Assembly: GCF_011064595.1 (NCBI RefSeq)
Contig: NZ_JAALJI010000015.1
Span: forward strand, 1-64,000
Direction: 5' to 3'
Length of the DNA: 64,000 bases
From: Paludisphaera soli
Lineage (GTDB): Bacteria; Planctomycetota; Planctomycetia; Isosphaerales; Isosphaeraceae
Shown piece after piece: positions 3,747 through 13,029 of this stretch. The notes beneath the pieces were generated by a model. It did no database searches. It had not been told where the DNA came from and was given only the letters and a program-made list of their open reading frames with translations. The position numbers were made by a program, and so were the translations under genes. How positions within the stretch are numbered: position 1 is the stretch's first letter; each line of letters begins with the position of its first letter.

Positions 3747-4595
3747 ATGCTTGGACTGTTGTTGCTCGCGGCGCCGTGGTTCTTGAATCCTCCCGAAGAG
3801 CGGGAAATGACCGAGCGGATGGTGCCAGCGGGATACCGAGGGAATTACTGGGGCCCCCAGGCCACCCAGGATCGCAAAGACGGCCGACTGCCCCAGATCT
3901 CCCTCACACCCCAGATGCAGCGCTGGGACGACTGGGGCCGGAAGTATCTCCAGAGCGGCGACGTGGTCTTCCGCATGGGCGATGCGCGCGTGGCCAAGGG
4001 CTGGTTCCCGATGAGTCGCTTCCTCGCGAACGCCAGCAACAGCAAGTTCTCGCACACCGGGGTGGTGGTGGTGGAGGACGGCGAGCCGATGGTCTACGAC
4101 ACCACGCGGACGAGCGTTGCACGCCAGCCCTTCTGCGTCTGGATCCTGGACAACGTGGGCAACTTCGGCGTGAAGCGGCTCCGCCCCGAGTTGCGTTCCA
4201 AGGTCCCGCAGGTCGTCGAGTACTGCCAGGACGTCTTCGCCAAGCAGGTCCCGTTCGACTACGAGTTGGGGCTCGACGACGAGGCCTTGTACTGCATCGA
4301 GCTGACCGAAAAGGCGTTCCGGCACGCCGGGCTCAAGCTCTCGGACCCGATCAAGCTCGGCGACATGGAACGGGCGCCCGAGTTCCCGATGCAGATGATC
4401 GGGATCGCAACGGCCTCGAAGTGGGCCCTGAACAAGCCCCTCACGTTCGAGCAAGAGGTCTGGTTCCCCGGCAATGAGCGGCACGGCATCTGGTCGTCGC
4501 CGAAGCTGGAGGTCGTCGTCCCGCCGACTTTCAAGCCCGGCTACCCCTTCATGGCCGACCACGGCGTCCCCGAGATCGTCTCCGCGGCCAACTGA
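3747..4595 (+). CDS. YiiX/YebB-like permuted papain-fold cysteine hydrolase
   Basis: Probable amidase or peptidase of the circularly permuted NlpC/P60 group. The permuted order is visible: strand GDVVFRMG, then FSHTGVVVV with the catalytic His (about H103), then ALYCIELTEKAF with the catalytic Cys (about C183). A short hydrophobic N-terminus (MLGLLLLAAPWF) suggests export or membrane anchoring, so it probably acts in the periplasm on peptidoglycan, lipid amides or peptides. The start ATG follows CGGAGAGAGG by about seven bases. It is convergent with the next gene, with only 31 bases between the stops. The substrate is unknown; YiiX relatives have been discussed as lipid or peptide amidases. 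Confidence 0.75.
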   Translation: MLGLLLLAAPWFLNPPEEREMTERMVPAGYRGNYWGPQATQDRKDGRLPQISLTPQMQRWDDWGRKYLQSGDVVFRMGDARVAKGWFPMSRFLANASNSKFSHTGVVVVEDGEPMVYDTTRTSVARQPFCVWILDNVGNFGVKRLRPELRSKVPQVVEYCQDVFAKQVPFDYELGLDDEALYCIELTEKAFRHAGLKLSDPIKLGDMERAPEFPMQMIGIATASKWALNKPLTFEQEVWFPGNERHGIWSSPKLEVVVPPTFKPGYPFMADHGVPEIVSAAN

Positions 4596-4626
4596 CGCTG
4601 CCGGACGATTTCCCCGCAAGGGCCCG

Positions 4627-5223
4627 TCAACCGGGCGACGGCCCCGCACCGGGGATCGAATAGCGGCGCACGCCTTGCGAGTCGTCCGCGGCGTTCTCGC
4701 GACGGCTGACGTCCGCACGGCGCCCGAGCGCCAGGGCGACCATCCCGAGGAGCGACAGCTCGATCAGGGTGTTCCACCTCACCCCGGCGACGGTCGAGTA
4801 GAGAATCCGATCGAGGTAATGAAACGACGTCGCCCTCGCTCCGAGGAAGCCCAGGAGCAGGACGACCGGTGCCAGCGCGGAGAGGTCCCGCCACGAAGAC
4901 CTCCGCGCCGCCATCCATCCCAGTACGGCCGCACCGACCGCGGCCAACGCACCCGCGACCAGGATGAACGCGAACTGGTACTTGCGGCGATACTCGTACC
5001 AGTCCCCCTCGACCGCCCGCTTTCGCATCGAGTCGGTGAGCAGACTTTGCGCGCCGAACGGCTTGCCCAGCGCCAGCAAGGCGAAGAGGATGGCCAGGCC
5101 CAGCCAGACGGGTGACCCCAGGCGCCTCCGGGGCCGGCGTGCGGCGCGGTCCTCCCACCAGGTCCAGCCGCAGAGCATCGCCAGCCAGAGATAGGCCGCC
5201 GTCGTGATCCAGTCGGGGATCAT
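4627..5223 (-). CDS. Small integral membrane protein, unknown function
   Basis: A 198-residue protein with four to five hydrophobic helices and an Arg-rich loop after the first (EDRAARRPRRR). A central segment (residues WYEYRRKYQFAFILVAG) joins two helices, and the conserved-looking tail ASFHYLDRILYSTVAGVRWN-type segment precedes a last helix and a charged C-terminus. I used the internal ATG at 5223 because residues upstream of it in this frame are Gly/Arg-rich and unlike protein. It is divergent from the ubiquitin-like gene at 5410, sharing a 186-base promoter region that contains a perfect dyad. No enzyme motif was seen. Confidence 0.65.
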   Translation of the reverse strand: MIPDWITTAAYLWLAMLCGWTWWEDRAARRPRRRLGSPVWLGLAILFALLALGKPFGAQSLLTDSMRKRAVEGDWYEYRRKYQFAFILVAGALAAVGAAVLGWMAARRSSWRDLSALAPVVLLLGFLGARATSFHYLDRILYSTVAGVRWNTLIELSLLGMVALALGRRADVSRRENAADDSQGVRRYSIPGAGPSPG

Positions 5224-5351
5224 CGGCTCTTCGGGACTGACGGCGGCGAGCAGGCGGAGCGGTTCCAGATCCAAGGGCGTGGCTCCCGGGGCGTTCTTGG
5301 GTCGCTCGTGTCGATTGCGGATCACGGCGTGGCGGACCGCCCGCGCCGGAA

Positions 5352-5367
5352 CTATCCTAGAGGATAG
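5352..5367. promoter_or_regulatory. Palindromic operator candidate in divergent promoter region
   Basis: CTATCCTAGAGGATAG is a perfect 7-2-7 inverted repeat, 43 bases before the ATG at 5410 and 128 bases before the divergent ATG at 5223. Each half contains a TATCCT resembling a -10 box; on the minus strand a TTGGAG lies 17 bases further upstream. It may be a repressor site or overlapping divergent -10 elements. Confidence 0.4.
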
Positions 5368-5409
5368 GCCCAAACCGCCACGACTCCAACCCTCTCGGGA
5401 GGCCCGCCG

Positions 5410-5814
5410 ATGGCCGCCACCCTGACCGTCCGCGACGAGACCCCCGCCGGCGGCGTCTCGGACGCCTGGTCCCTGGAATTCCTGAGCGAGACGATCACCG
5501 TCCGCGACTTGATCCGCGAGCGGGTCTACCAGGAGGTCCAGGACTACAACGTCAAGCAGCAGGCCGTCGGCCCCTACCGAGGCCTCGTCCAACCCGAGGG
5601 GATCGAGCGGGCCCTCAACGGCCCCCGCGCCGGCGCCAAGGCCCGCCCGATCGACTGGAAGAAGCAGTTCGACAAGGCCGTCGAGGCCTTCGAGACCAAC
5701 CGCGTCCTCGTGCTCATCGACGACCGCCAGGCTGAGTCGCTTGACCAGAGCTTCACCATCGCCCCGACCACGGCCGTCACCTTCCTGCGGCTGACGCTCC
5801 TCGTCGGCGGGTGA
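5410..5814 (+). CDS. Ubiquitin-like (beta-grasp) protein with C-terminal Gly-Gly
   Basis: I infer a beta-grasp fold. Residues 4-9 (TLTVRD) and 20-30 form a hairpin, followed by helix DLIRERVYQEVQ; after an insertion (about 46-95) come strand NRVLVLIDDRQ and the final segment FTIAPTTAVTFLRLTLLVGG, which lines up with the ubiquitin C-terminus (strand, then Leu-rich strand, then Gly-Gly). The reading frame ends directly after the two glycines, as in mature ubiquitin-like modifiers. The 50-residue insertion, with PIDWKKQFDKAVEAFE, is unusual for ubiquitin. The start ATG has GGGAGG seven bases upstream. The next gene on the same strand encodes a DUF4132 protein. No E1, E2, JAB protease or THIF-type gene is seen in the window, so conjugation is unproven; a sulfur-carrier-like or purely binding role is also possible. 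Confidence 0.7.
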   Translation: MAATLTVRDETPAGGVSDAWSLEFLSETITVRDLIRERVYQEVQDYNVKQQAVGPYRGLVQPEGIERALNGPRAGAKARPIDWKKQFDKAVEAFETNRVLVLIDDRQAESLDQSFTIAPTTAVTFLRLTLLVGG

Positions 5815-5981
5815 GTCTCCGACGCCGGCCGATTCTCCGCATCCCGGGACGCCGCCAGGTGGCGGAAGCCCCGCGCAGGCCCTATGTTCAGCGGTGTCGG
5901 ATCAGGAGCCGGGGATCGATCATCCCTCCGCGCCGTCGCGAAGCTCCGCGGGATCCGGCGCGTCCCTCCCGGGGGTGGAAC

Positions 5982-8591
5982 ATGGCGAAAGCGGCGAGCA
6001 AGGCCTCGGTCGACGAGCTCGATGGGCTGATCCAGGAACTGGCGAAGGAGAAGCCCCGGGGGAAGTACGGCGATTCCTGGTATGGGGTCCAGCTCGGCGA
6101 CCTGGATTCGGGGAAGAAGCTGCTGGCCCTGGACCGCGAGAAACAGGTCGAGGTGGTCGACCGCCTGATCAGCCGGGTCCTCGACATCGAGAAACGCGCC
6201 CGCGAGATCATCGAGGCCTCCGACCACGAGCATAACCGCTACATGAAAGACCCCGAGTGGGAAGGGGTGAACCAGCCTCGGTCCCGATTCGAGATCGCCA
6301 TGCGCGGGCTGCTTCGTCGCAAGCATGACCTGGCCCCCGGGACGGTCGTCTCACTGCTCCGCTGGGTCTCCGAGAGCACCCATCCCGGCCCGTATTGGCA
6401 GCCCTTGCCGGGCATCGCGACGGCCGTCGAGAACCTCGCCGCCGTCGGCCCGCTCCCCGAGGACGTGAAGGCCGCCCTGGCCGCGACCATCGCGCGACTC
6501 AAGCCGTTGACCCAGTACGGCGACGACGTCCGCAAGCCCCTCGGCCGCTTGATGAAGCTGGTCGCGGAGGAGCAAACGGCCCGCATCGACGCCGGCGAGG
6601 CCTGGGCCGACGCCGCGCTCGCCGACCTCGCCGCCATGCCCCCGGAACGCCGCTCGGCGTGGCAAGCTCTCTTGCTCTCCTGCCAGGATGCCGGCGCGGG
6701 CAAGCCCTCGGCGAAGTGGCTCAAGGCCGTCAAGCCGCTGATCGACGCCGTCGGCCGCGAGGACTTCAAGGCGAAGCTCCTCAAGTGGTTTCCGCTGGTG
6801 GACAGGCCGCGTACCGAGTCGAAGCCCCGGGCGAACGCCTGGGAACCTGACTACGACCAACTGATCGAGCCGCACCACGTCGACCTGCTCAGGGGGCTCG
6901 CCTGGTGCGCCGGGACGGAGGCCGACCGCGAGCTGGCCCGGGCGCTGGCGGCGCTGGCGCTTTCGGCCTACCGCAAGGTCCCAGGCAAGGGGCCGAGGCT
7001 GGTCTCGCTGGGCCACGCGGCCCTCGCGGCGCTCGGGATGATGCCGGGGATGGACGCCGTCGGCCAGCTCGCGATCCTCAAGCTCCGGATCCGGTTCATC
7101 CCGGCCCAGAAGGAGGCCGAGAAGGCCCTGGCCGCCGCCGCGAACCGCGAGGGGCTGCCGCGCGAGGATATCGAAGAGCTGGCCGTCCCCGCCTACGGCA
7201 TGGAGGAGGTCGGCCGCCGCGTCGAGGTCCTGGGCGATTACACCGCCGAGTTGGCGATCGACGGCCCCGACGTCCACGTCTCCTGGAGCAAGGCCGGCAA
7301 GCCGCTGAAGTCCCTCCCCGCCGCCGCGAAGAAGGAGCATCCCGACGAGGTCAAGGAGTTGCAGGCGGCCGCCAAGGACGTCGGCAAGATGCTCACCGCC
7401 CAGCGCGAGCGGATCGACGGCCTCTTCCTCGCCCGCAAGTCCTGGCCGCTCGAAGCCTGGCGGGCCCGCTACCTCGACCACCCGCTCGTCGGCGCGATCG
7501 CCCGCCGCCTGATCTGGGCCTTCGAGGCCGACGGTAAGGCCGTCGCCGGCGCCTGGCTCGACGGCCGACTCGTCGGCGTCGACGACGCGCCGCTGGAGGG
7601 GCTCGGCGAGGCGACGAAGGTTTCGCTCTGGCACCCGATCGACCGCCCCGTCGACGAGGTGACGGCCTGGCGCGACTGGTTCGACCGCCACCGGGTCCGC
7701 CAGCCGTTCAAGCAGGCGTATCGCGAGGTGTACGTCCTGACCGACGCCGAGCGCAACACCCGCGTCTACTCGAACCGGTTCGCCGCGCACGTCCTGCGGC
7801 AGCACCAGTACCACGCCCTCTGCGCCGCGCGGGGCTGGCGGAACAAGCTGCGGCTGATGGTCGACGACACCTACCCCGCCACGTCCCGCGACCTCCCCGA
7901 GTGGAACCTCCGCGCCGAGTTCTGGATCGAGGGGATCGACGGCGAGTACGGGACGGCGACCACCGACTCGGGCTCCTACCTCCACCTGGCCACCGACCAG
8001 GTCCGGTTCTACGAGGTCGGCGCGCCGCAACGCGAGGCCCACGCGAGCGGCGGCGGCTACGCGCCCGACCGGCGCGAGGCCGACGCCGAGCCGGTCCCCC
8101 TCGACCGGATCCCGCCGCTGGTCCTGAGCGAGGTCTTCCGCGACGTCGACCTGTTCGTCGGCGTGGCGAGCGTGGGCAACGACCCCAACTGGTCCGACGG
8201 CGGCCCCGAGGGCCGGTTCGTCGACTACTGGCGGACCTACAGCTTCGGCGACCTCACCGCCAACGGCAAGACCCGCAAGGCGGTCCTGGAGCGGCTGATC
8301 CCGCGCCTGAAGATCGCCCCGCGCTGCTCGTTCGCCGACAAGTTCCTGGTGGTCCGGGGCGACCTGCGGACCTACAAGATCCACCTGGGGAGCGGCAACA
8401 TCCTGATGGAGCCGAACGACCAGTACCTCTGCATCGTCCCGAAGCGCGGCGGCGAGCCGACGGGCGACGGCGTCTTCCTCCCCTTCGAGGGGGATTCCGT
8501 CCTCTCGATCATCCTCAGCAAGGCGATGATGCTGGCCGAGGACAAGAAAATCACCGACTCCACCATCACCAGCCAGATCGGCCGGGGTTGA
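5982..8591 (+). CDS. DUF4132 domain-containing protein (MolR/YehI-like)
   Basis: A large cytoplasmic protein of 869 residues. The first 480 residues are helical, with alpha-solenoid-like stretches. Residues about 486-690 match the DUF4132 pattern (PLEAWRARYLDHPLVGAIARRL, then the W-H-P-I and YREVYVLTDAE segments). The last 170 residues (PLVLSEVFRDVDLFVG through to DKFLVVRGDLRTYKIHLGSGNI) form the C-terminal domain that accompanies DUF4132. The molecular function is not established; the E. coli relative YehI sits near AAA and VWA genes. I chose ATG 5982, which has GGGGGTGG upstream. A GTG at 5811 would overlap the previous stop, but its extra 57 residues are Arg/Pro-rich and look non-coding. 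It follows the ubiquitin-like gene by 167 bases. Confidence 0.85.
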   Translation: MAKAASKASVDELDGLIQELAKEKPRGKYGDSWYGVQLGDLDSGKKLLALDREKQVEVVDRLISRVLDIEKRAREIIEASDHEHNRYMKDPEWEGVNQPRSRFEIAMRGLLRRKHDLAPGTVVSLLRWVSESTHPGPYWQPLPGIATAVENLAAVGPLPEDVKAALAATIARLKPLTQYGDDVRKPLGRLMKLVAEEQTARIDAGEAWADAALADLAAMPPERRSAWQALLLSCQDAGAGKPSAKWLKAVKPLIDAVGREDFKAKLLKWFPLVDRPRTESKPRANAWEPDYDQLIEPHHVDLLRGLAWCAGTEADRELARALAALALSAYRKVPGKGPRLVSLGHAALAALGMMPGMDAVGQLAILKLRIRFIPAQKEAEKALAAAANREGLPREDIEELAVPAYGMEEVGRRVEVLGDYTAELAIDGPDVHVSWSKAGKPLKSLPAAAKKEHPDEVKELQAAAKDVGKMLTAQRERIDGLFLARKSWPLEAWRARYLDHPLVGAIARRLIWAFEADGKAVAGAWLDGRLVGVDDAPLEGLGEATKVSLWHPIDRPVDEVTAWRDWFDRHRVRQPFKQAYREVYVLTDAERNTRVYSNRFAAHVLRQHQYHALCAARGWRNKLRLMVDDTYPATSRDLPEWNLRAEFWIEGIDGEYGTATTDSGSYLHLATDQVRFYEVGAPQREAHASGGGYAPDRREADAEPVPLDRIPPLVLSEVFRDVDLFVGVASVGNDPNWSDGGPEGRFVDYWRTYSFGDLTANGKTRKAVLERLIPRLKIAPRCSFADKFLVVRGDLRTYKIHLGSGNILMEPNDQYLCIVPKRGGEPTGDGVFLPFEGDSVLSIILSKAMMLAEDKKITDSTITSQIGRG

Positions 8592-10935: not shown

Positions 10936-13029
10936 ATGCAGTTCCCTCGGCTTCCCCGCCTCGCCCTGGCCTTGACCCTGGCCGCCTGGAATCCCTCGAC
11001 CCGGGCCGACGAGCCCCCACTGGTCCGGTCGGCCCGATCCGGCTCCTGGTCCGCGAAGGAGACCTGGGACGCGGGTCGCATCCCGAAAGCCGGCGACCGG
11101 GTCGTGATCGCGGCCGGGCATCGCGTCGACTACGACGTCGTCTCCGAGGAGGTGATTCGCCTGGTGCAGATCGCGGGGACGTTGGAGTTCGCCCGGGATC
11201 GCGACACCCGCCTGGACGCCGGCCTGATCGTCGTCACCGGCTCCGAAGAGCCTTCGGAGGACGGCTTCGACTGCCACGCGCCGATGGCACCCATGAAGGA
11301 TCAGCCCGAGTCCGCCCGACCCGCGTTGCTGGTCGGTCGCCCCGGATCGCCGATCGCCGCCGGGTTCTCGGCCCTGATCCGGCTGCATGAAGTCGAGGGG
11401 ATGGACCGGGACTCGTGCCCGGCGATCGTCTGCTGCGGCGGCCGCATGGAGTTCCACGGCCAGCCGATGCGGCGGACCTGGCTGAAGATCCGCCAGACGG
11501 CCGACGCCGGCGCGTCCGCCGTCTACGTCGACGAGTGGGCCGGAGGCTGGAAGCAGGGGGACCACGTCATCGTCACCAGCACCAAACGCCAGCGCGACGG
11601 CCGCGGAGTCGGGGGCGATTTCCTGGCCGGGGCGCAGACGGAGGAGCGTCGGATCACCGGGCTCTCCGCGAAGGACTTCACCGGGGGCTATCCCGTGAAG
11701 CTCGACCGCCCGCTGGCGTTCTCCCACTTCGCCGAGGGGAACTTCCGCGCGGAGGTCGCCAACCTCACGCGCAACGTCGTCGTGGAGTCGGCCGATCCCG
11801 ACGGCGTGCGCGGGCACACGATGTATCACCGGAACTCGGCCGGCTCGATCAGCTACGCCGAGTTCCGCCACCTCGGCAAGCGGGACGAGAAGGGGCGCTA
11901 CAGCATCCACTTCCACCTGGCCGGCGAGACCATGCGGGGCAGCTCCGTGATCGGGGCCTCGATCTGGGACAGCCACAACCGCTGGATCACCATCCACGGC
12001 ACCGACGCCCTGCTGGTGCGCGACGTCGTCGGCTACAAGAGCGTCGGGCACGGCTTCTTCCTGGAGAGCGGCACCGAGGTCAACAACATCCTCGACCACA
12101 ACCTCGCGGCGCTGGTCCTGCCGGGCAAGCCGCAGGAGGAACAGGAGGTCCCCTTCGACCTCAACCGCGGCGCCGGCTTCTGGTGGGCGAACAGCCAGAA
12201 CAGCTTCACCCGCAACGTCGCCGTCGAGTGCGCCGAGTACGGCTACCGGTTCGACGTGAAGAAGACGGACGACTACGACCCGGTCCGCGCGATCCGCCAG
12301 CCCGACGGCTCCACCGCCGCCAGGGACGTCCGCATCCTGCCGTTCGTCCGCTTCGAGGATAACGAGGCCCACACGATGAAGTTCTTCTGCCTGAACCTCC
12401 GGGGCGTCACGCGTCCCGACCGGGGCCTGGACTTCTACAGCCAGAACGAGAGCCTGGCGCGCGAGGCGTCCGAGGCGATCCCCGAGCCCGGCCATCCCTT
12501 CTGGATCCGCGACTTCCGCGGCTGGGAGGCCAACTGGGCGACCCACCTGGGGACGACCGGCGTGTTCGTCGACGGCCTGGACGTCTTTCGCTCCGACGTG
12601 GCGATCTGGCGGTCCATCATGGACGGGTCCGGCTTCCGACGGATGACCACCCAGGACATGCGCGTCAACGACATCCACAACCCGATGACTTCGGGACGCG
12701 TGCCGACCCGGGAGGAGTCGGAGAAGGGCGCCTTCCGCGGTCTCTCCAGCTTCAAGGACGACATGCCGCCGACCACGGTGATCACGTCGGCCGTGCGCGA
12801 GGGGAACCTCGTCCGCGTGCGGGGCTCGGTCGCCGACGCGAGCGACGTCAAGCGGGTCGTCGTCAACGGCCGGGACGCGACCTCCACGCGCGGGAGCTTC
12901 GCCGAGTGGGAGGCGGTCCTCGAGGCCCCGTCGGGCGCGGCCCTGGACGTCGTCGCGGGGGCCGAGGACGTCCACGGCCACGTCGAGCCCAGGCCGCACA
13001 TGGTCAAGGTGGAGCATCCAGGCCTGTAA
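10936..13029 (+). CDS. Secreted G8-domain beta-helix protein
   Basis: A 697-residue exported protein with signal peptide (LPRLALALTLAAW, cleavage near STRADE). Residues about 30-150 form a G8 domain, seen as SGSWSAKETWDAGRIPKAGD and VVIAAGHRVDYDV followed by glycine-rich strands; it is known from human CEMIP/TMEM2/PKHD1L1. The centre reads as a right-handed parallel beta-helix (repeats such as GHGFFLESGTEVNNILDHNL and NSQNSFTRNVAVECAEYGYRF). The C-terminus (about 615-690) is a small beta-sandwich. In animals such proteins are linked to hyaluronan turnover; for bacteria the substrate is unknown, probably an extracellular polysaccharide. GGAG lies upstream of the ATG. It starts 52 bases after the lipoprotein gene and may share its transcript. 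Confidence 0.85.
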   Translation: MQFPRLPRLALALTLAAWNPSTRADEPPLVRSARSGSWSAKETWDAGRIPKAGDRVVIAAGHRVDYDVVSEEVIRLVQIAGTLEFARDRDTRLDAGLIVVTGSEEPSEDGFDCHAPMAPMKDQPESARPALLVGRPGSPIAAGFSALIRLHEVEGMDRDSCPAIVCCGGRMEFHGQPMRRTWLKIRQTADAGASAVYVDEWAGGWKQGDHVIVTSTKRQRDGRGVGGDFLAGAQTEERRITGLSAKDFTGGYPVKLDRPLAFSHFAEGNFRAEVANLTRNVVVESADPDGVRGHTMYHRNSAGSISYAEFRHLGKRDEKGRYSIHFHLAGETMRGSSVIGASIWDSHNRWITIHGTDALLVRDVVGYKSVGHGFFLESGTEVNNILDHNLAALVLPGKPQEEQEVPFDLNRGAGFWWANSQNSFTRNVAVECAEYGYRFDVKKTDDYDPVRAIRQPDGSTAARDVRILPFVRFEDNEAHTMKFFCLNLRGVTRPDRGLDFYSQNESLAREASEAIPEPGHPFWIRDFRGWEANWATHLGTTGVFVDGLDVFRSDVAIWRSIMDGSGFRRMTTQDMRVNDIHNPMTSGRVPTREESEKGAFRGLSSFKDDMPPTTVITSAVREGNLVRVRGSVADASDVKRVVVNGRDATSTRGSFAEWEAVLEAPSGAALDVVAGAEDVHGHVEPRPHMVKVEHPGL

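Follow-up and report, generated by a model that had tools for sequence, protein, structure and literature searches.

The window analysed here is a stretch of 64,000 nucleotides from Paludisphaera soli (Planctomycetota, family Isosphaeraceae; NCBI RefSeq assembly GCF_011064595.1, contig NZ_JAALJI010000015.1, positions 1 to 64,000 of the forward strand). Its subject is a pair of adjacent genes, one for a predicted ubiquitin-like protein (Ubl) that terminates in Gly-Gly and one for a large protein carrying the domains DUF4132 and DUF7737. The features of the pair are as follows.

5410..5814, + strand: open reading frame (ORF) of the Ubl, a predicted ubiquitin-like (beta-grasp) protein of 134 amino acids; ATG start, TGA directly after Gly-Gly
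5791..5811, + strand: conserved C-terminal tail LTLLVGG of the Ubl
5982..8591, + strand: DUF4132-DUF7737 partner, 869 amino acids from ATG 5982; the ORF is open from GTG 5811 (5811-8591)
5982..7181, + strand: predicted N-terminal helical-repeat (possibly HEAT/ARM-like) region, about residues 1-400, from the partner model and fold search
7296..7838, + strand: DUF4132 domain (PF13569), with conserved H551, K577, R581, E582, R599, H603 and R617 (numbering from ATG 5982)
8268..8579, + strand: DUF7737 domain (PF24879), which marks the DUF4132 subtype paired with the Ubl

The Ubl ORF, which has GGGAGG just 5′ of its ATG (by eye), ends with codons for ...FLRLTLLVGG before the TGA, and the G+C content of the window is 66-76%. 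For the partner, ATG 5982 is the likelier start, because 869 amino acids fit the 833-890 of many relatives; this start leaves about 167 bp between the two genes. A sequence-only reading made earlier had pointed to a 134-residue ORF ending in Gly-Gly beside a DUF4132 gene, and this ORF proved to be real and to belong to a conserved family.

The Ubl has matches in 13 of the 45 genomes of the host family, Isosphaeraceae, and a profile search detected it in 20 of 392 Planctomycetota genomes (the P. soli genome is counted in both); a scan of genome contigs placed it at 13 loci, the named relatives being Planctomycetota. Across 33 diverse members the mean column identity was 40%. Scans with Pfam, NCBIfam and PADLOC (33 members for the first two) assigned no credible family, giving scattered weak matches of which the best in Pfam had an E value of 0.0048 in one member, and sequence searches of the PDB returned nothing significant for the Ubl or for the partner. 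A scan of viral contigs with one tail pattern gave 14 stretches, none of them a Ubl relative. Genome-level sampling covered Planctomycetota, and other phyla were reached through a plasmid collection, in which 7 of 23 records with a DUF4132 match also held a Ubl. These searches found the Ubl beside DUF4132 in Deinococcus radiodurans, D. ficus, D. psychrotolerans and Deinococcus sp. D7000, as well as in Nonomuraea (Actinomycetota), Novosphingobium (Alphaproteobacteria) and Bacteroides finegoldii; five of the 16 other records were examined, and the DUF4132 stretches of these (Acetobacter, Streptomyces, E. coli, Burkholderia and Allorhizobium) had no Ubl match. Judged by these comparisons, the Ubl is a real and widespread family in five phyla, for which we found no curated name or model.

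The terminal Gly-Gly on which the sequence-only reading had built is conserved, as the stop codon follows directly after GG in 44 of the 48 Ubl members that are paired with a DUF4132 gene. In the joint table of paired loci, which omits L041, L042 (two genes) and L083 (no DUF4132 match in the locus), 43 of 47 Ubl genes end in GG, and the 48th member is L041, located at a contig start whose first bases read as the end of a DUF4132-DUF7737 protein just upstream of a Ubl ending in GG; L019, L020, L024 and L026 were omitted as repeats of genomes already counted. Within a 24-member alignment, the GG end was present in 20 members with at least 47% identity to the window protein and in two members at 28%, and was missing from L015 and L017. 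A further 20 matches from the phylum search ended in GG (17), GA (two) or SG (one), the Ubl gene of L047 ends in LVGG, and the seven members outside Planctomycetota comprise six GG ends and one SGRLW. Directly before the last seven residues, most aligned members have Arg or Lys, so that trypsin would leave on a modified lysine LTLLVGG (about +653.41 Da by our sums, window protein) or LTALAGG (about +583.33 Da, D. radiodurans) in place of Gly-Gly (+114), and the search for Gly-Gly remnants suggested by the sequence-only reading would overlook it. The genome G001 has two tandem Ubl copies ending in LVCC and LDRP, no DUF7737, and four DUF4132 matches that lie elsewhere, none beside the Ubls; this single case fits a tail that is kept for the sake of the partner.

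Two divergent members were observed in other settings. At L129 (B. finegoldii, 11938-12357), the Ubl ending in SGRLW is located next to the gene of a DUF4132 protein of some 1690 residues, and the gene immediately upstream encodes a rhomboid protease; such a tail might need trimming, or its chemistry might have been lost. At L083 (genome G102, 1834-2424), a distant Ubl ending in QVAGG has an NTP_transf_5 nucleotidyltransferase gene just upstream and a class V aminotransferase gene about 1.2 kb downstream.

The AlphaFold2 model of the Ubl, built with 24 sequences, had a mean predicted local distance difference test (pLDDT) score of 74.4 and a predicted template modelling (pTM) score of 0.71. 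It contains strands at residues 3-10, 16-24 and (28-30), a helix at 31-48, a weak helix at 65-70, a helix at 83-95 and strands at 99-103, 114-116 and 122-127, and its tail has a pLDDT below 50 (disordered, very low confidence). With strands as E and helices as H, the order is E-E-(E)-H-(weak helix)-H-E-E-E, with about 50 residues between the main helix and the next strand, and this matches the layout of two strands, a helix, an insertion and a strand that had been read from the letters alone. In VIA-align, the top match was MoaD (5mpo_B; Z 8.0, root mean square deviation [rmsd] 3.2, 79 residues), followed at ranks 2-4 by U11 snRNP chains, and the 50 rows were by title mostly ubiquitin, ISG15, UBL or MoaD (Z 6.9-8.0, rmsd 1.9-3.6, 70-91 residues), the ubiquitin, ISG15 and UBL matches spanning Ubl residues 1-132 with Z 6.9-7.9; according to the tool's own note, a Z of this size may reflect a mere common arrangement, and values up to 8 are no proof. 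Foldseek gave no significant match (best E 0.0097), its list mixing ubiquitin-fold and staphylococcal superantigen chains. For the D. radiodurans homolog, DR_A0165, a fold like 5MPO, SAMP1 (3PO0) and 1WGK was predicted independently, according to the accessible text of PMC9650054. Because the match list is consistent and agrees with the topology and the tail, beta-grasp is the best reading of the predicted structure; the structure prediction proposed by the sequence-only reading did not contradict that fold.

The partner matched the DUF4132 profile with an E value of 1.4e-52 (178.7 bits; cut-off 27) and the DUF7737 profile, a domain that the sequence-only reading had not named, with 4.5e-41, and its model had a pLDDT of 85.6. 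Residues 1-398 match many HEAT/ARM chains, the best Z of 10.4 falling within the range deemed unspecific for helical repeats. Foldseek and VIA lists were filled with helical-repeat chains, and the C-terminal half was barely probed by those searches. At an E value of 1e-3, the partner had no match among phage records. Ubl-paired proteins match the DUF4132 model through DUF7737; the proteins of E. coli and Allorhizobium and most extra planctomycete copies end before DUF7737. The last 480 residues of 45 Ubl-type and 14 other DUF4132 sequences were compared, and this revealed that P446, H551, Q578, R581 and D721 are widely common to both types, that K577, E582, H603, R617, R720 and D723 are near-invariant in the Ubl type only, and that R599 is retained in 5 of the 14 others; DUF7737 contributes the conserved R765, Y798, H801 and S804. 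Nearly all Ubl-type residues also occur in L113, L144 and L131, three copies that have DUF7737 but no Ubl next to them, and thus these residues mark the subtype, not adjacency. These data indicated that the Ubl partner is a distinct DUF4132 subtype, composed of predicted helical repeats, DUF4132 and DUF7737.

The sequence-only reading had also considered machinery built into the DUF4132 protein, and for this we found no support: Pfam and PDB-sequence searches gave no match to a known enzyme (the fold search hardly reached the C-terminal half), and the partner has no invariant cysteine, C817 being present in 30 of 32 sequences (alignment A2) and no cysteine attaining 93% conservation across the final 480 residues of the 45 sequences. 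A thioester enzyme within the partner is, on this alignment evidence, not supported.

The linkage of the two genes, which had been anticipated from the one locus, recurs: across 43 planctomycete loci, a DUF4132-type frame is the same-strand partner of 40 of 44 Ubl genes. In 39 of the 40 paired cases the stop-to-stop frames overlap or lie no more than about 125 bases apart, the gap at L032 being 832 bases, and the partner is split into two frames in L038 and L075. All of the 47 loci that were selected for holding both genes have them on a common strand, with the Ubl first in 42 and DUF4132 first in 5. Clustering by blastp revealed no other gene cluster in more than 5 of the 43 loci. Two Ubl groups could be discerned, one with partners of about 670-1515 residues and a second subfamily with partners of about 1620-1690 residues; DUF5724 was found in the single long partner that was scanned (L043), and its end also in L082.

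Co-occurrence was likewise strong at the genome level. DUF7737 was found in 19 of the 20 Planctomycetota genomes with a strong Ubl match vs 5 of the 372 others (Fisher p 8e-27, in a test that treats related genomes as independent), with the weak Ubl matches in G079 (E 0.0087) and G129 (E 0.008) counted as absent. The five genomes with DUF7737 and no Ubl were G079, in which the DUF4132 gene begins at a contig edge, G258, G364, G335 (a fragment) and G109 (match below the cut-off). Within the host family, DUF7737 occurred in 12 of 13 genomes with the Ubl, on a separate contig in the case of G023, vs 2 of 32 without it (G021 and G034, both short pieces); the thirteenth Ubl-bearing genome is G001. 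The domain was absent from 14 control genomes, E. coli included. A mirror-tree correlation between Ubl and partner (r 0.95; 45 of 47 pairs, with L038 and L060 dropped) was not taken to indicate contact, since the species history that the two proteins share accounts for it.

The P. soli genome contains a second Ubl-type DUF4132-DUF7737 gene on another contig, C79 (L113, 8066-10489). No Ubl match was present in the 20-kb stretch around it, and the small ORF before this gene resembles a membrane protein; both partners might be served by the one Ubl found in this genome.

Genes for activation were sought in the same genomes. The window contig (C57) had no ThiF, Prok-JAB or ThiS-family match; such matches in the P. 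soli genome were on C35, C134, C1, C111 and C2, with ThiF and Prok-JAB matches on C35, C134 and C1; on C35, one E1 gene neighbours a ThiS-family gene. As far as contigs reach, the 13 Ubl-bearing family genomes have no ThiF or JAB gene within 60 kb of the Ubl, so the earlier statement that no machinery is seen nearby was borne out for E1 and JAB, E2 not having been searched by profile. As to the accompanying suggestion that machinery might be encoded elsewhere, ThiF-type E1s and JAB proteins, and ThiF- and ThiS-family genes likewise, are present in 45 of 45 family genomes, and thus an E1 is available to the Ubl in trans. Since E1s and JAB proteins occur also where the Ubl is absent, they could serve it without being specific to it; the search for an E1 or JAB whose presence follows that of the Ubl found none in these genomes. 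As a separate observation, C134 of P. soli carries at about 4150-7937 (L137) an operon of its own, encoding a Ubl-like protein that ends in VAG together with a ThiF-type E1, a JAB protein and what by eye resembles an E2. Judged by coordinates, most of the 45 family genomes have a ThiF match and a JAB match within a few kb of each other.

Published work on D. radiodurans bears on the pair. DR_A0165, a homolog of the window Ubl, ends in LTALAGG and lies beside the DUF4132 gene DR_A0166. In the accessible text of PMC8533742, DdrO depletion strongly upregulates the operon drA0165-drA0166, for which a DdrO box is listed at -83, tagged DRA0166 increases with mitomycin C in an IrrE-dependent manner, and its DUF4132 is suggested to be possibly involved in molybdopterin biosynthesis. 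In that of PMC9650054, DR_A0165 is the stress peptide SEP068184, which goes up after irradiation and H2O2, binds Trx1, and on deletion raises survival of H2O2; the same text states that it is confined to Deinococcus and lacks a radiation/desiccation response motif (RDRM). We found the RDRM TTATGCTATTTACATAA once in the 24-kb D. radiodurans locus, 80-64 bp before the DR_A0165 start, an identical copy 5′ of two other Deinococcus Ubls, and the form TTCTGCTATTTACAGAA in D. ficus. As far as sequence comparison goes, our data speak against both statements, since homologs appear in four further phyla and the motif is present, as PMC8533742 had listed. In D. radiodurans, modA and thi genes are located no more than 12 kb from the pair, neighbours that do not recur at three other Deinococcus loci; the neighbouring trxC was dropped as a linked gene, as it does not recur there either. 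Work on the JAMM protease of D. radiodurans includes the speculation that this organism may have a Ubl modification system, with DR_A0165 unnamed in the accessible text (PMC8832034). The word ubiquitin is absent from the main text of PMC8533742 and PMC9650054, and the one open-access library searched yielded no paper in which DUF4132 is paired with a ubiquitin-like protein or DR_A0165 is termed a ubiquitin-like modifier.

On balance, we consider it the likelier account that housekeeping ThiF-type E1s activate the Ubl, a Gly-Gly carrier or modifier, and that the DUF4132-DUF7737 partner then receives it, with a chemistry that we infer. The flexible tail (LxLLVGG) would be the working end; a housekeeping ThiF-type E1 would adenylate its terminal glycine, the tail would enter a conserved charged pocket of the partner, and an acyl group (a thiocarboxylate or the Ubl itself) would pass to the partner or to a client held by the helical repeats. 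Tail conservation, fold and partner specificity together suggest the insertion of the tail into the partner, and since DNA damage induces the Deinococcus pair via the DdrO/IrrE circuit, a role in stress is probable. Covalent chemistry of the Ubl as such, with a sulfur-only role counted as a sub-case, seems to us moderately probable. Several observations weigh against this account. The presence of E1 and JAB does not track the Ubl across the 45 family genomes, and Ubl-type DUF4132 occurs without an adjacent Ubl on C79 of P. soli, as a second copy in Nonomuraea, in Acetobacter, G258 and G364, and in fragments. Four of the 48 paired members lack the GG end, having GA twice (in one genome), SG, and SGRLW in Bacteroides, and the GG-ending Ubl of L083 has neither an adjacent DUF4132 nor a DUF7737 in its genome. 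Alignment of the Ubl with the MoaD/ThiS profile by hhalign gave a probability of 11.9 over 33 columns, in the tail only, although in register. Lastly, 157 proteins were common to four pull-downs of N- and C-terminally tagged DR_A0165 (PMC9650054, accessible text), an argument that a free tail is not required for those contacts.

The deviating tails and the proteins co-immunoprecipitated with both tagged versions, together with the tight pairing and the lack of ThiF and JAB genes near the Ubl, would suit a non-covalent subunit, structural or regulatory for DUF4132, whose Gly-Gly is kept to fit a narrow tunnel without activation chemistry. We regard such a subunit as possible, if on the unlikely side: the stop falls right after GG in nearly all paired members, and a tunnel fit would be expected to tolerate residues beyond GG more often. 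Moreover, a terminal Gly-Gly is the established hallmark of activated tails (MoaD, ThiS, Urm1, SAMP and ubiquitin), which are made by ThiF-type E1s. That the Ubl is a sulfur carrier only, a MoaD/ThiS/TtuB-like thiocarboxylate donor with a sulfurtransferase or sulfur acceptor as its partner, is a sub-case of the carrier/modifier account and appears unlikely to be the whole of its function. MoaD as the top fold match, the weak tail-register profile match, the universal ThiF- and ThiS-family genes of the host family, the modA and thi genes near the D. radiodurans copy and the molybdopterin role suggested for DRA0166 (PMC8533742, accessible text) all favor it; however, the partner lacks an invariant cysteine, the thi/mod neighbours do not recur, and there was no family-level sequence match.

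A bolder proposal, which we consider quite doubtful, is that DUF4132-DUF7737 is a ligase or acyl-acceptor for a Gly-Gly Ubl that works without cysteine thioesters, the pair forming a damage-induced two-gene protein-modification system in at least five phyla. Improbable to a slightly greater degree is a partner that would activate or ligate the Ubl on its own, as an enzyme of a new kind; its subtype-specific charged residues, its added DUF7737 domain and the lack of any other frequent gene cluster would agree with this, but the Pfam and PDB-sequence searches revealed no ATP-using enzyme or ligase and there is no invariant cysteine for a thioester. Finally, for a chance look-alike, a small hypothetical ORF with an accidental Gly-Gly end, the high G+C content speaks and nothing else; since the protein family and its end are conserved in five phyla, this explanation is refuted and its likelihood is negligible.

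Among known systems, DR_A0165/SEP068184 shares with the window Ubl the DUF4132 pairing and a MoaD/SAMP1-like predicted fold. MoaD/ThiS proteins (PF02597) resemble the Ubl in the beta-grasp and the GG end, MoaD being its top solved fold match, but their partners are MoaE or ThiG instead of DUF4132, the Ubl has the additional spacing of about 50 residues after its main helix, and only one of 33 members matched the PF02597 profile, at an E value of 0.16. TtuB, SAMPs and Urm1 are dual sulfur carriers and modifiers that use a housekeeping E1, and the account favored here resembles them in the GG end, the E1 in trans and the link to stress; to our knowledge, no DUF4132 partner is known for them. The prokaryotic Ubl-E1-E2-JAB operons (PMC7159879, accessible text) also contain a bacterial Ubl, while the window Ubl has no linked E1 or JAB; the operon on C134 of P. 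soli belongs to this type. The YehI-type DUF4132 proteins of MoxR-DUF5682-VWA(-SWIM) clusters share the DUF4132 domain, but their loci have no Ubl match, they lack DUF7737 and their key charged residues differ; yehI of E. coli lies beside MoxR, DUF5682 and VWA genes and the Allorhizobium gene beside AAA, DUF5682, VWA and SWIM genes, and MoxR, DUF5682, VWA and SWIM are absent among the scanned neighbours in the window.

The remaining features around the pair are the following.

5352..5367, no strand: inverted repeat CTATCCT-AG-AGGATAG, 43-58 bp 5′ of the Ubl start
5′ of the Ubl: genes for an SSF transporter, an adenylate kinase and a C92-type permuted papain-like peptidase; on the opposite strand, one unassigned protein
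3′ of the pair: genes for a DUF1559 protein and a CEMIP-like protein

These flanking genes look unrelated to the pair. The C92 peptidase (permuted papain-like, YiiX-like) is encoded at 3747-4595, two genes 5′ of the Ubl, and as its cluster occurs in 5 loci only, mostly of one genus, its proximity is probably synteny. In two related genomes a DUF2442 protein follows the Ubl (L040, 10713-11027, where the domain was scanned; L041, 549-854, same cluster). Of nine loci compared, the inverted repeat is confined to near relatives, being intact in G031 and partial in G029 and G030; a search for a regulon found this single occurrence in the P. soli genome, and the repeat is a possible operator.

Already in print are DR_A0165 as a MoaD-like stress peptide and the damage induction of its operon. 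DUF4132 and DUF7737 are annotated as of unknown function; with a Gly-Gly Ubl as recurrent partner, there is now a specific hypothesis, open to testing, for one subtype of DUF4132. Because the D. radiodurans operon is genetically accessible and damage-induced, and a deletion strain has been published, the question is directly testable. If the reading is true, a two-gene Ubl system without an E1 of its own would extend the logic of SAMP, TtuB and Urm1 to bacteria of five phyla.

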